Assembly (NCBI RefSeq): GCF_003259185.1
Contig: NZ_QGMP01000001.1
Span: 992,001 to 1,056,000, forward strand
Source of the DNA: Isoalcanivorax indicus
GTDB lineage: Bacteria > Pseudomonadota > Gammaproteobacteria > Pseudomonadales > Alcanivoracaceae
Direction: 5' to 3'
DNA: 64,000 nt
A model generated the notes under the pieces. It searched no databases. It saw nothing but the letters and a program-made list of their open reading frames with translations, and was not told the DNA's origin. The position numbers and the translations under genes are program-made. Below, piece after piece: positions 37,249 through 59,510 of the stretch (its first letter is position 1; each line of letters begins with the position of its first letter).

Positions 37249-37287
37249 CAATGCGGGTCAACAATGCGGGGTAAGCAATGCGGGTAG
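37249..37287 (+). repeat. Triplicated CAATGCGGG over the PhoD start codon
   Basis: Three imperfect 12-14-bp direct repeats (CAATGCGGGTCAA, CAATGCGGGGTAAG, CAATGCGGGTAG) each contain an ATG. The first two ATGs (37251, 37264) open seven-codon frames that stop before or just after the true start (37278). The best ribosome site (AAGGGA) is in front of the first ATG, so the leader peptides may compete with the main start. Confidence 0.6.
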
Positions 37288-38714
37288 AACCTTTTTCGGT
37301 CGGCCCCATCATCGGCGCCTGTGAGCCTGACAGCGCGCGCCTGTTCGGGCGCGCTGCCATGACGGCCTTCAATCTGTCCGGCAAGGCCATGCTGGGGCGC
37401 GTCCGCTGGCGTCAAGCGGGGCAGGCAGACTGGCAGCCCGCGCAGGCGTTTCGGCTGAACACCAACTTTGACGGCAGCGGCGTTGCCGTGCTCCACGGGC
37501 TGACCCCCCGGACGGTGCATGAATATCAGGCCGGCTGGGTTCTGGACGCCGATGCCCCGGCGTCGCTGCTCGACTGGCGAGCCCTGCCGATCTACCGCTT
37601 CCGCACAGCCCCGGCCGAGCGCGATGCCCCCGCCAGCCTGCTGCTCGGCTCTTGCAGCTACCGCTTCTTCGACCTCGGCGGCCTGATCTCGGACGACCGC
37701 GCCGACAAGACCTTCAAGGCCATGCATGCCCATCAGCAGCAACACGGGCCGGTGGACTTCACCATGCTGTGCGGCGACCAGGTCTACGCCGACCCACTGA
37801 ACCGCCTCGGTGCCCTGAGCGACGAGGCCTGTTACCTGCAGCTTTACCGTCGCGTCTTCGGCCAGCCTGGCATGCGCGAGCTGATGGCCAACACGCCGAC
37901 CTACATGATCCTTGATGACCACGAGATCGAGGACAACTGGCCCGCCCACGCCTCCCCGGCAGACCGCATCGGCAAGTTTCCGGCCGCCATCAAGGCCTAC
38001 CAGATCTATCAGGCTTCGCATGGCCCGGCCATGCCACTGGACCCCACCGGCTGCTGGCCCGACCGCGACCCCGACCACCTGTGGTACACCTTCAGCCACG
38101 GCTGCGCCGATGTGTTCGTGATGGATGTGCGTACCGAGCGGCAATTGCAGGGCGGCAAGCGCGACGTGCGCATGATCTCGGCGGAGCAGGAGCAGGCGCT
38201 GCTTGACTGGCTGGCGACCTCAACCGAGCGGGTCAAGCTGATCGTGTCTCCGGTGGTGGTGTTCCCGGACAACCGGCGGCTGTTCCGCCGAAGCGATGCC
38301 TGGGAGGGCTTTGTCCATCAGCGACGCCGCATTCTTGACGCTGTTCGCCGACTGAACCTGCGCCGCGTGGCGTTTCTGTCCGGCGATGTACACGCTTCGC
38401 TGGTGGCGTCGCTGCATACGCGAGGCCACGATGGCAAGCCGCTGACGATTCATAACGTGGTCAGTTCGGGGTTGTTCTGGCCCAGCGCGCTGATGGCATT
38501 CCGCTGGTACAGCCCGATGATCCAGTCTTCCGGGCGCCTGGCCACGGGAGGACTCTGGTCCTGGAATCGCTATCGGGTCGCCCTGTGCAATCGGGTTTAC
38601 AGCCGCGATGCCTTTGCGCGCATCGAGGTATCGCCGGCGCAACTGAGGTTCCGGTTGTTCGACCGGAGGGGGGATGCCTTGCCGACGCACGATGTGGATG
38701 TCGACTGGGGCTGA
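37278..38714 (+). CDS. PhoD-type metallophosphatase family protein
   Basis: A 478-residue member of the alkaline phosphatase D family. The metal-site motifs are LCGDQVYADP and ILDDHEIEDNW. Later ones are FLSGDVHASL and the C-terminal His region. Unlike classical PhoD it has no Tat or Sec signal, so it is probably cytoplasmic. The usual substrate class is phosphodiesters or phosphomonoesters. The ATG at 37278 is the third of three repeated ATGs. Its 3' side opens into the 620-base non-coding region. Confidence 0.85.
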   Translation: MRVEPFSVGPIIGACEPDSARLFGRAAMTAFNLSGKAMLGRVRWRQAGQADWQPAQAFRLNTNFDGSGVAVLHGLTPRTVHEYQAGWVLDADAPASLLDWRALPIYRFRTAPAERDAPASLLLGSCSYRFFDLGGLISDDRADKTFKAMHAHQQQHGPVDFTMLCGDQVYADPLNRLGALSDEACYLQLYRRVFGQPGMRELMANTPTYMILDDHEIEDNWPAHASPADRIGKFPAAIKAYQIYQASHGPAMPLDPTGCWPDRDPDHLWYTFSHGCADVFVMDVRTERQLQGGKRDVRMISAEQEQALLDWLATSTERVKLIVSPVVVFPDNRRLFRRSDAWEGFVHQRRRILDAVRRLNLRRVAFLSGDVHASLVASLHTRGHDGKPLTIHNVVSSGLFWPSALMAFRWYSPMIQSSGRLATGGLWSWNRYRVALCNRVYSRDAFARIEVSPAQLRFRLFDRRGDALPTHDVDVDWG

Positions 38715-38778: not shown

Positions 38779-38881
38779 ACAGCTAATCTGTACGCGGACT
38801 CAAGGACTGAGTAGTGCAACACGGATGTTGATCCTCTATACAGCCTGTTTCGATCGCCCGCCCCCAGCGGGCGTTTTTTTT
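38779..38881 (+). ncRNA. Candidate structured small RNA or 3' UTR
   Basis: Three small hairpins in a row, ACAG/CTGT (38779-38791), ACTCA/TGAGT (38798-38812) and CAACA/TGTTG (38817-38830), lead into a strong intrinsic terminator. No good open reading frame with a ribosome site is present. No clear promoter was found, so it may be processed from the phosphatase mRNA. The first part of the gap (38715-38778) shows nothing more. Confidence 0.4.
38855..38881 (+). terminator. Intrinsic terminator
   Basis: CGCCCGC (38855-38861), CCCCA loop, GCGGGCG (38867-38873), then eight T. This is a textbook rho-independent terminator for plus-strand transcription, ending the PhoD-type transcript or a small RNA. 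Confidence 0.9.
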
Positions 38882-38918
38882 GGCGTTGTGCTCCATGCTG
38901 TGTTGGTTTGGTGGTTGT

Positions 38919-39037
38919 GGCCCTCGGGGGGCGGGTAAAGGGTTTCTGGACACGCTGCAAGTACATCCCTGTAAGCTCTCGTTCGGCATCCATGCCTCTC
39001 GAAGGTCCAGAAACCCTTTACCCGCCCCCCGAGGGCC
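38919..39037. repeat. Long palindromic element 1
   Basis: Two perfect 33-bp arms (38919-38951 and 39005-39037) enclose a 53-base loop. The arms read GGCCCTCGGGGG outwards and TTTCTGGAC inwards. The loop contains GTACATCCCTGTAAGC and GTTCGGCATCC, similar in order and orientation to the loop of element 3. Flanks differ from those of elements 2 and 3, so this is a second subtype. It is non-coding. Confidence 0.9.
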
Positions 39038-39120
39038 GTCACGCGCAGCCCGGTTAACGACTTCCAGCCAACTGAAAGCCTGGTTCTGGCGACAAGCTAC
39101 GACGTGCCAGCGGTGAAGTG

Positions 39121-39260
39121 ACCTCTGAACTGAGGCCTCGGGGAGGGGTAAGCCCTTCCAGAAGTGTGTGAGGCAGGAAGCCGAACGCAAGCCTACAGGG
39201 ACGTATTTACGGCGGCTTCTGGAAGGGCTTACCCCTCCCCGAGGCCGCGCTACGAAGCAC
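39121..39260 (-). repeat. Long palindromic element 2
   Basis: Perfect 31-bp arms (39134-39164 and 39216-39246) enclose a 51-base loop (39165-39215) that is the exact reverse complement of the loop of element 3. The inner 12 bp of the arms (CCCTTCCAGAAG type) are shared, and the outer arms differ but remain paired. On the outside, a CCTC/GAGG mini-hairpin and a GCTACGAAGCAC stretch are also shared with element 3. The stretch between elements 1 and 2 (39038-39120) is unassigned. Confidence 0.92.
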
Positions 39261-39271
39261 ATGACAGCCCA

Positions 39272-39300
39272 CTGAAATCCCCCAGCCCCTGACGTATACT
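39272..39300 (+). promoter_or_regulatory. Promoter of the DUF2288 gene
   Basis: CTGAAA (39272-39277) and TATACT (39295-39300) are separated by exactly 17 bp, 35 bp before the start codon. The -10 is strong. It starts only 12 bp after the end of palindromic element 2. Confidence 0.55.
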
Positions 39301-39334: not shown

Positions 39335-39622
39335 ATGTCCGAGCTTATCGATACCCTGAATCGGGAAACCGCGCGCATCAGCTGGAGTGAGTTGCAGCCG
39401 TTCTTCGCGCGTGGCCAGACCGTGGCCGTGGACCCGGCGCTGGATCTCGTGGCCGTCGCCGCCGCCTTCGCCCGGGACGACAAGCCCACCGTGCAAGGCT
39501 GGATGGAGGGCGCCCGCGTGGCCGTCGTTACGGACGCCCAGAGCGCCGCCTGGCTGGACGCCGATGCCGACATGTGGGCCGTGGTGGTGGCGCCGTTTGT
39601 GCTGGTGCAGCCGGTCGCCTGA
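39335..39622 (+). CDS. DUF2288 family protein
   Basis: A 95-residue cytoplasmic protein. LNRETARISWSELQPFFARG and VDPALDLVAVAAAFARDD match the DUF2288 pattern, as does AVVVAPFVLVQ at the end. GGAG precedes the ATG. The function is unknown. It is convergent with the GST gene and 22 bp from it. Confidence 0.82.
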   Translation: MSELIDTLNRETARISWSELQPFFARGQTVAVDPALDLVAVAAAFARDDKPTVQGWMEGARVAVVTDAQSAAWLDADADMWAVVVAPFVLVQPVA

Positions 39623-46017: not shown

Positions 46018-46018
46018 A

Positions 46019-47998
46019 TCACTCGGTGGCCTGCTGCAACAGCGCCATGTGATAGCCCGGGTGGCGCTCATGGGCCTCGATCAGTGCGACCCGCTGCCCG
46101 CCTTCACCGTCCAGTCTCTGCAACAGCACCCGATAGGCCAGCACGGCCTGCACGTATTCCCGTGTTTCACGGAAGGGAATGGACTCCACCCACACATCGA
46201 ACGGCAGGGTGGTGTCACCAAGCCAGTCATCCACACGGTGCCGCCCGGCGTTGTAGGCGGCCAGCGCCAGCAGCCGGTTGCCCTGGTAGCGGCTGATCAG
46301 GTCGGCCAGGTAGGTGGCGCCGAAGCGGATGCTCAGTTCCGGCACCATCAGGGCATCGTTGTCCGGTGCCTCTTCCTTCAGCCAGCCGGCAATCTGCGCC
46401 GCCGTGCCGGGCATGATCTGCATCAGACCGCGCGCCCCCACGGGCGACACGGCATGGCTGTGGAACGCGCTTTCGCGCCGCGCCACAGCCATCAGCAGAT
46501 AAGGGTCCATGTCGCGTTCCCGGGCAACGGCCATGAAGGCGTCACGGTAGGCGCGCGGGAAGCGCCAGGTCAGCACATTGTGGGCGCCCGCATGGATGGC
46601 GGCATCGACCACCAGGGCATCCCACTGTCGTGACAGCGCGTAGTTGGCCAGCGCGTGGGCGGTGGCGTTGTCCCCCTGGCGCAGCAGTCGCAGCCATTCG
46701 TCGCGCGCCAGCGAGGGTTCATCAATGGCCAGCAGCAGGGCGATGCGGGTCAGTGCGGCATCATCCTTCGGCAGCGCGGTTTCCGGTGCGCTGGTCTGGT
46801 GCAACGCATACGGGACGTTGATCTGGTCTGCCGCTGCAAAGGCCCAGAAGTTGCGTCGCTGGGCGGCCTGCTGCCAGGCGTGCCTGGCCAGTTCCGGTTC
46901 GCCCACGGCCTGGTAGGCGCGCCCCAGCCAGTACTGCCAGCGGGACTCCTGCTGCTCGCTGGCAGGCAGCCGCGCGATCCAGGCGATCACGTGGTACCAC
47001 TGCTGCTCGGCAATGGCCCGGCGCGCCCGTTGTTCGATCAGGGCATCGCTGCCATGAGCCAGCAGCCAGCGGTCCAGCCAGGCCCGGTTCTCCGGCAGAT
47101 CACGAATGGTGGAGAAGAAGGCGATCCGGCGCTCGGCGTTGGCGCGTGCCGTTTCCGAGAGCGCCGGTTCGTGCTCGATCAGGGTGTTCAGCGCCTGCAG
47201 GGCCGCCACGGTGTCGGTGCTGGCCATGCGATGCAGCCCGGCATCAACAAGCTGGGTGCGCTGCACCCGGGTCAGGCCATCCGGCAGATCGAGAATGCGC
47301 TCGGGCTGGTTGAACACCTGCCGCAGCAGCAGACCGGCATCGGCCATGTCGTCGCTGAGCAGCTCACCGAGATGACGCATCAGGGCCGGATCGCCAGCGC
47401 GAAAGGCGAGCAGCTTGCGTTGCCAGATCAGGCTATCGTCGATGACCCCGGCGCGACGGGCCGCATCGAAGAGCGGGTCGCAGGCGGCGGGACGCGAGTT
47501 GCCATGCAGCCACAGGCTTGGTATTTCGGCCCAGGCCTTCTTCGGGTCCTGGTCATGGATGGCGCGCCAGTAGTAGCACACCAGTTCATCGGTGACCGGC
47601 GGTGTGGTGCGGAAGGTACGCAGCTTGCGCCATTCGCCGGCGCGCCCGTACTGACTGATGGCCACGCGCTCCATGCTGGCGGCCAGCGGCAGATCGGCAT
47701 AGCGCTCGCGATAGCGATTGACCTCGGCGGGTGAAGCGCCGGGCAGCGCAGCGCGCAGGCGATGGAAATCCAGGTACCCCTGCAAGGGATGGTTCGGGCC
47801 CAGCGCCGCTTCCAGTGTGTCCAGGCGTTCGAAATCGCGGTCGCGGGCAGCGTCCAGCGCGGCACGGAACAGCGCCGGATCAAGCGCAGCCTCCCGTTCG
47901 GTCGCGGCGGAGCCGGGTTGCACCAGCAGAAGTCCGGCCACCAGCAGGGCCCACAGGCCCTGGCGCGGAGAACGTGACAGGGGGGCGAGCAGCGTCAT
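46019..47998 (-). CDS. slt: Soluble lytic murein transglycosylase
   Basis: A 659-residue periplasmic enzyme: signal peptide (LLVAGLLLVQPGSAA), a long superhelical ring domain (about 40-470), and a C-terminal SLT catalytic domain with AVARRESAFHSHAVSPVGARG (Glu near residue 495) and GLMQIMP. E. coli Slt70 is 645 residues. The start is uncertain: the ATG at 47998 gives a clean signal peptide, while a double ATG at 48032-48037 would add 13 residues. Confidence 0.92.
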   Translation of the reverse strand: MTLLAPLSRSPRQGLWALLVAGLLLVQPGSAATEREAALDPALFRAALDAARDRDFERLDTLEAALGPNHPLQGYLDFHRLRAALPGASPAEVNRYRERYADLPLAASMERVAISQYGRAGEWRKLRTFRTTPPVTDELVCYYWRAIHDQDPKKAWAEIPSLWLHGNSRPAACDPLFDAARRAGVIDDSLIWQRKLLAFRAGDPALMRHLGELLSDDMADAGLLLRQVFNQPERILDLPDGLTRVQRTQLVDAGLHRMASTDTVAALQALNTLIEHEPALSETARANAERRIAFFSTIRDLPENRAWLDRWLLAHGSDALIEQRARRAIAEQQWYHVIAWIARLPASEQQESRWQYWLGRAYQAVGEPELARHAWQQAAQRRNFWAFAAADQINVPYALHQTSAPETALPKDDAALTRIALLLAIDEPSLARDEWLRLLRQGDNATAHALANYALSRQWDALVVDAAIHAGAHNVLTWRFPRAYRDAFMAVARERDMDPYLLMAVARRESAFHSHAVSPVGARGLMQIMPGTAAQIAGWLKEEAPDNDALMVPELSIRFGATYLADLISRYQGNRLLALAAYNAGRHRVDDWLGDTTLPFDVWVESIPFRETREYVQAVLAYRVLLQRLDGEGGQRVALIEAHERHPGYHMALLQQATE

Positions 47999-59369: not shown

Positions 59370-59510
59370 GTGCTTCGTAGCACGGCCCCGGGGGAGAGGG
59401 ACACCCTTCCAGAAGCCGCCGTAAATACGTCCCTGTAGGCTTGCGTTCGGCTTCCTGCCTCACACACTTCTGGAAGGGTGTCCCTCTCCCCCGGGGCCTC
59501 AGTCAGAGGT
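59370..59510 (+). repeat. Long palindromic element 3
   Basis: Perfect 32-bp arms (59384-59415 and 59467-59498) flank a 51-base loop (59416-59466) identical to the reverse complement of the loop of element 2. It is bordered by a small hairpin GTGCT-TCGT-AGCAC (59370-59383) and a CCTC/GAGG mini-hairpin (about 59496-59508), both with counterparts in element 2. It fills part of the 347-base gap between apbC and dcd. The remainder (59511-59692) shows no gene or clear signal except the dcd ribosome site. Confidence 0.92.

Follow-up and report, generated by a model that had tools for sequence, protein, structure and literature searches.

Structure of the palindromic unit

The window, a stretch of 64,000 nucleotides of Isoalcanivorax indicus, lies on contig C1 of a 3.44-Mb genome in 9 contigs. 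Between an upstream gene (37278-38714) and a downstream gene (39335-39622) lies a unit of two long hairpins, A and B. The whole unit spans 38892..39260, with approximate ends set by flank line-up and by the BLAST matches of many other copies, which begin or end at 38892-38893 and at 39257-39260.

Hairpin A occupies 38919..39037. Its left (38919..38951) and right (39005..39037) arms are each 33 nt long, 100% complementary, and enclose a 53-nt loop. Hairpin B lies at 39134..39246, with arms of 31 nt (39134..39164 and 39216..39246) that are likewise 100% complementary around a 51-nt loop. These coordinates confirm the mismatch-free arms and the loop lengths reported in an earlier note on this DNA; the gap between the hairpins, given there as 83 bp, is actually a 96-bp spacer (39038..39133). 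Spacers of 96 bp were found in six other A-B units of the same genome and of 99 bp in three further ones. As the note had also recognised, the loops are related and run in opposite directions: the minus strand of A aligns with the plus strand of B. These are the strands on which the loops read GGA, hereafter the GGA strands. The pair forms one head-to-head unit, and the same architecture recurs in further copies.

A hairpin scan located a third copy in the window, a single B-type hairpin at 59384..59498 (C1:1051384-1051498 of the same genome, G000) with its GGA strand on minus. Its arms (59384-59415 and 59467-59498) are 32 nt long and 100% complementary, with 51 nt between them. When loops of up to 150 nt were allowed, perfect arms reached 33 nt in the window and no more than 11-13 nt in 30 Markov-1 resamples. 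The palindromes are real, with arms far beyond chance.

An intrinsic-terminator-like site is present on the plus strand at 38855..38881, in the interval between the upstream gene and the unit (one found, 0.6 expected in shuffles). Neither hairpin A nor hairpin B is followed by a terminator-like T-run. A consensus scan returned no sigma-70-like promoter in the 96-bp spacer; it did mark a sigma-70-like site outside the unit, on the plus strand at 39272..39300, before the downstream gene. The sequence GCTACGAAG or a near form flanks several B hairpins on both sides, for example at 39247-39259 in the window, and looks like a direct repeat or recombination site.

The GGA strand of each loop is able to form two small hairpins, with A-N-GGA-N loops closed by C-G. 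In A, hairpin 1 reads GGC-ATGGAT-GCC; in B it reads GGC-AGGAN-GCC, with the shorter loop A-GGA-N. Hairpin 2 is TAC-ANGGAN-GTA or CCC-ANGGAN-GGG. In the window, A carries GGC-ATGGAT-GCC at 38985..38996 and TAC-AGGGAT-GTA at 38962..38973, both on the minus strand and both recognised from the sequence and a 40-copy alignment; their GGAs are 23 nt apart. The TAC/GTA stem of the second alternates with CCC/GGG between copies. On the plus strand, B carries GGC-AGGAA-GCC at 39172..39182 (sequence, alignment and fold) and TAC-AGGGAC-GTA at 39194..39205 (sequence and alignment). The latter is present when the whole of hairpin B is folded and absent when the B core is folded alone. Folded alone, the window cores were no more stable than their shuffles (z = -0.37 and -0.17), so the case for this structure rests on comparison and not on energy.

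Copy number and distribution

A covariance-model search of the genome and its relatives, proposed in the earlier note as a check, recovered a large family. The model, R1, was built from 40 copies of the same genome (39 distinct) with class C left out. Its rows were hand-picked from 77 scanned hairpins, of which four had no assigned strand (three cross-pairings or spacer hairpins and one B copy with an insert). R1 gave 123 matches in this genome, both palindrome strands counted; 67 distinct places reached E of 2e-17 or better. The hairpin scan added 13 outside those 67, namely ten of class C, with ~23-bp arms, a 67-nt loop and GGA hairpins too, and three with a deletion or insert. The family thus numbers about 80 hairpins in this genome. 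Class A accounts for 43 of the hairpins, among them C1:2281648, in fact a B that has been shortened. Hairpins lie at or near the ends of draft contigs at C2:1, C3:77, and C6:58 and 12498 of this genome, at C5 and C9 of G001 and at several places in G005. Assemblies therefore break at the hairpins, and copy numbers are likely underestimated.

Matches to R1 were obtained in 20 of the 46 genomes of the host's family, a survey whose zeros may hide weak matches because stricter filters were used, and whose counts may include second strands of one palindrome. In the host's genus, four of seven genomes gave 75, 54, 53 and 41 matches and the other three gave zero. Among other genera, all 13 genomes of g3 and all three of g5 had matches, with none in the 17 genomes of g8 or the six remaining genomes. 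The A-type core pattern occurred in at least 22 stretches from Alcanivorax, Alcanivoracaceae or Gammaproteobacteria records, a floor since this pattern misses the B and C types. Blastn against plasmid and phage records returned no family match, and viral contigs contained no match to one exact A-type pattern, by which B and C types are missed.

Covariation and strand bias

The claim that pairing rather than arm sequence is kept was borne out by the 40-copy alignment. Among its 1744 cells, 99.8% were paired, and 30 of the 48 pairs had changes on both sides. Cells changed on both sides numbered 388, a value reached by none of 500 shuffles, and one-sided changes were rare (2 of 1744 cells). When partners were slid by 1-3 columns as a control, 37-51% of cells paired.

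The remaining mismatches were strongly strand-biased. Read on the GGA strand, 5859 arm pairs from 197 distinct hairpins included 54 G·U against 5 A·C. Reduction to 81 representatives at most 90% alike left 26 against 3, which 7 of 20,000 sign flips reached; when the plus strand of the contig was used instead, the same representative pairs gave 13 against 16. In the host genome alone the values were 15 and 3. Three of 200 hairpins had been dropped (two outside the length limits, one REP-like) with the G·U and A·C counts unchanged, and the strand assignment requires at least one GGA loop per hairpin. This excess indicates selection on the GGA strand in single-stranded form. The bias is most simply explained by RNA; tolerance of G·T would also fit an ssDNA hairpin.

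Small loops of the form A-N0/1-GGA-N were conserved on these changing stems. In 224 hairpins chosen by their arms alone, two such stem-loops were present in 178, one in 46 and none in 0; the sample is not blind, because the loci were fetched as family matches, and may include a few hairpins of another repeat. Both N positions of the loop took all four bases. In g3 and g5 the stem of hairpin 1 is often entirely different and the GGA loop is retained, as in TTTGGC-CAGGGATG-GCCAAA and GTCAAA-CAGGATG-TTTGAC. Small loops that lack the GGA or its A (ATGTTT, AGAGAC, AGAGAT and GCGGAT) were seen once each. Shortly 3' of many hairpins, for example those at L244, L254 and L013, stands another TGGAG, CTGGAG or ACGGAG, a possible unpaired third GGA.

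Turnover between relatives

Comparison with orthologous sites of G005, the closest species, shows both arm sides changing together, and in one orthologous unit the hairpin-2 part switches blockwise between the TAC and CCC forms. These changes point to replacement from other copies and not to slow point compensation, with unpaired outcomes removed by selection. Palindromic DNA that is neutral, its arms kept identical by nothing but template switching or ectopic conversion and no structure selected, would account for the replacement of arms and loop blocks as blocks and for the rarity of one-sided changes. From conversion, however, one would expect neither the conservation of loops while stems change nor a bias towards one strand in the mismatches that are left. 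This reading is already disfavoured by that bias, and we consider it very improbable.

The unit itself varies between relatives. The site of the window's A-B unit holds A-C in G003, A and C at contig ends in G001, A facing the other gene in G005, and none of these hairpins in G004 and G006. The latter two genomes, which have no R1 matches, carry at L138 and L137 a short CCGGC-AGGGAT-GCCGG hairpin with a GGA loop, placed after the phosphatase gene and past the same terminator. A further A-C unit of G003 separates two convergent genes; the window counterparts of these genes abut at about 46018-46021, which represents an empty site. A target-site duplication of the kind that MITEs leave was not readable there, the relatives being too diverged.

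In all 8 distinct instances observed, a palindromic insert of ~78 nt starting GTGAG(A/G)CAAG occupied a GGA-loop tip and followed directly on A-N-GG; these came from loci that had been fetched for their hairpins, a survey in which insertions elsewhere would go unseen. The loci are L014, L020 and L032 of the host genome and L136, L140, L145, L154 and L158 of its relatives. The host locus L025 is the intact counterpart of the insert-bearing L154 of G005. No such insert was found in the window. REP-targeting insertion sequences (ISPpu9, ISPpu10, ISPsy8 and others) similarly represent a secondary mobile sequence that aims at palindromic repeats (PMC1525189), whereas the insert here is just ~78 nt long and located at the tip of the loop.

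Orientation and genomic placement

Close pairs were mostly divergent, with the GGA strands pointing apart. This held for 27 of 27 in the host genome and 23 of 25 in other genomes (14/15 in G055, 6/6 in G010, 3/3 in G019 and 0/1 in G052). Loci of a wider class sample gave one divergent pair out of two. The 10 hairpins of G022 were all single, with no pair.

Gene placement was analysed for 46 units of the host genome built from the hairpins of loci L001-L060, a subset of the copies, with neighbours called by a simple codon model made for this analysis; 27 of the 46 are the close pairs just mentioned. For the 42 units with both neighbours called, these were convergent in 20, tandem in 20 and divergent in 2; the window's 53 gene pairs divide into 13, 26 and 14, respectively. 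Where the left neighbour reads towards the unit (28 units), the hairpin begins a median of 40 nt past the stop codon. Both observations would suit elements that act at gene ends, whether by stabilising 3' ends, by terminating transcription or by insulating converging transcripts from each other, with the GGA loops an incidental legacy of ancestry. Yet a gene reading towards the unit meets the near hairpin in antisense orientation, and selection at the mRNA 3' end should therefore give the opposite mismatch bias. In the window, moreover, no T-run follows the hairpins and the neighbouring gene retains its own terminator. A gene-end function as the basis of the family seems to us quite improbable.

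The inverted doublets raise the main rival to an RNA element, namely strand-specific ssDNA hairpins that a transposase would recognise much as REP/REPIN or IS200/IS605 ends are recognised, with the GGA loops as transposase contacts. Dispersed copies in inverted doublets are REPIN-like (PMC3116915). The filled site in G003 and its empty counterpart in the window, together with the strand-biased tolerance of G·T, fit such a mechanism as well, and the placement of the insert exactly at the loop tip suggests that the tip is exposed as ssDNA. The single-strand (Y1) transposase that the earlier note had suggested might be linked to the repeat was searched for, and no association with the elements was found. 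Y1 genes were present in 17 of the 20 genomes that bear elements and in 20 of the 26 that do not, all three g5 genomes bear elements with no Y1 hit, and at one Y1 locus in each of 15 element-bearing genomes there was no R1 match. The rival thus lost its main prediction, linkage to a Y1 gene, in the genomes and loci surveyed; the loops, in addition, agree with the CsrA/RsmE consensus discussed below. We regard it as unlikely, and an enzyme other than Y1 could still move the units.

Identity with REP/RAYT systems was tested in the same way and was unsupported, neither Y1 association nor linkage having been found in these surveys. REPs are shorter than these hairpins and carry other motifs. The family shares with REP, BIME and REPIN sequences its extragenic dispersed palindromes, inverted doublets and compensatory hairpin changes (PMC3116915), and differs from REP/REPIN with RAYT in having no Y1 transposase association. 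At L242 and L245 of G055, a TTGTGGGAGCGGGC-type palindrome, presumably a Pseudomonas-like REP, adjoins the units.

Relationship to TwoAYGGAY RNA

The core resembles TwoAYGGAY (RF01731), a named RNA family. This motif was listed in 2010 without a function as a probable RNA of human gut, Gammaproteobacteria and Clostridiales (PMC2864571). Rfam clan CL00106 includes both RsmY and TwoAYGGAY. In PMC4333381, CsrA binding of TwoAYGGAY is predicted, GGA motifs are said to occur two by two to suit the dimeric CsrA, and tandem GA is described for the motif. The RsmE consensus appears as A/U-CANGGANG-U/A in PMC6849547, and our loops, on their sequence, agree with it in fixed and variable positions.

A search of the whole host genome with RF01731 gave seven hits, one above the 43-bit cut-off (51 bits) and six below, all coinciding with places from R1 or the hairpin scan. 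The copy scored at 51 bits in that search is omitted by cmscan. The window copies had no TwoAYGGAY match at E of 5 or 10, and an Rfam scan of the window at gathering thresholds returned tRNA only. Matches of the palindromes to eukaryotic microRNAs at E of 5, none of which attained the gathering score, were put down to the long stem alone and rejected.

In the class sample, RF01731 hits at 1e-4 occurred in 18 of 369 genomes, some with several; these counts are lower bounds, at most seven candidates per genome having been scored. Many of the fetched hits had long arms and GGA loops, and four of the five close pairs from other Gammaproteobacteria among the RF01731 matches listed were divergent. 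The family here shares with TwoAYGGAY an outer stem around two adjacent GGA-loop hairpins, and RF01731 hits in other Gammaproteobacteria are likewise often several per genome. Opposed G-A/A-G steps under hairpin 1 are invariant in the 40 A/B copies, as seen in the alignment alone, and are missing from g3 copies with long hairpin-1 stems. The family differs from TwoAYGGAY in that the second loop position takes any base and not only Y, in that about a fifth of the sampled hairpins (46/224) have one loop, in that most copies are unhit by RF01731, and in its near-perfect arms of ~30 bp.

The earlier note saw no match to REP, BIME or ERIC repeats and would have taken a match to any named repeat family as evidence against its reading. 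The core does have such a likeness, to the RNA family TwoAYGGAY, but no description of TwoAYGGAY as a dispersed repeat was found in the literature searched. The TwoAYGGAY anatomy was already on record and its binding of CsrA already proposed; its occurrence as a high-copy, mostly divergently paired dispersed repeat appears to be new, as far as our literature searches reach. Among the papers listed by our literature searches, none combined CsrA with palindromic or mobile repeats.

Discussion

The earlier note left a choice among DNA cruciforms, transposase substrates, recombination sites and structured RNA. The present data narrow this choice to a strand-specific single strand, which fits best, and the loop motif favours RNA. 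We consider it somewhat probable that the family is a dispersed, insertion-capable repeat that specifies a structured RNA of the TwoAYGGAY type from its GGA strand and binds CsrA. What the comparisons show is the fold and the selection on it; transcription, CsrA binding and titration by the family are steps that we infer.

According to this model, RNA of the GGA strand would be made by read-through or from a weak promoter. Each long hairpin would then present A-N-GGA-N stem-loops closed by C-G, two as a rule, while the ~30-bp arms would clamp both CsrA sites. Two sites with the GGA spacing of hairpin A are the arrangement expected for a CsrA/RsmA dimer. Binding of a CsrA dimer by the RNA might lead to titration in proportion to copy number; alternatively, the element may mark the RNA end that carries it. 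Selection on the single strand, along with the replacement of blocks by those of other copies, would keep the arms paired. The host genome encodes one CsrA gene of 62 aa.

Several observations stand against the chain from RNA to CsrA. The consensus scan marked no promoter in the spacer, a fraction of the hairpins has a single loop, some GGA loops have been lost, inserts occupy loop tips, and R1 matches nothing in three of the seven genomes of the genus. The dRNA-seq map of Alcanivorax dieselolei B-5 also counts against it: 549 sRNAs were annotated with Rfam and, in the portion of that report accessible to us, TwoAYGGAY is not named and only two CsrA-related sRNAs are reported (PMC9788540), although genome G019, which we take to be that of this strain, has 24 R1 matches.

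Tens of dispersed copies with CsrA sites on divergent strands might together act as a distributed CsrA sponge, a mobile decoy; we put this forward tentatively, as a doubtful extension of the RNA model. CsrB, CsrC, RsmX, RsmY and RsmZ each come from a single sRNA gene that has many sites and a regulated promoter. The present family resembles them in its ANGGA hairpin loops for CsrA dimers and differs in that a hairpin offers no more than two loop sites, the hairpins are many and separate, and no promoter was found.

A fold selected on one strand of a high-copy repeat gives a concrete reason to test, in marine bacteria that are harmless, why the loops resemble CsrA sites. If CsrA is bound, the family would be a spreading repeat wired to a global post-transcriptional regulator, and its dose would differ between close relatives, from no R1 match to between 41 and 75 within the genus. 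Were the distributed sponge to prove true, copy number would tune a global regulator, and whole lineages would gain or lose it.
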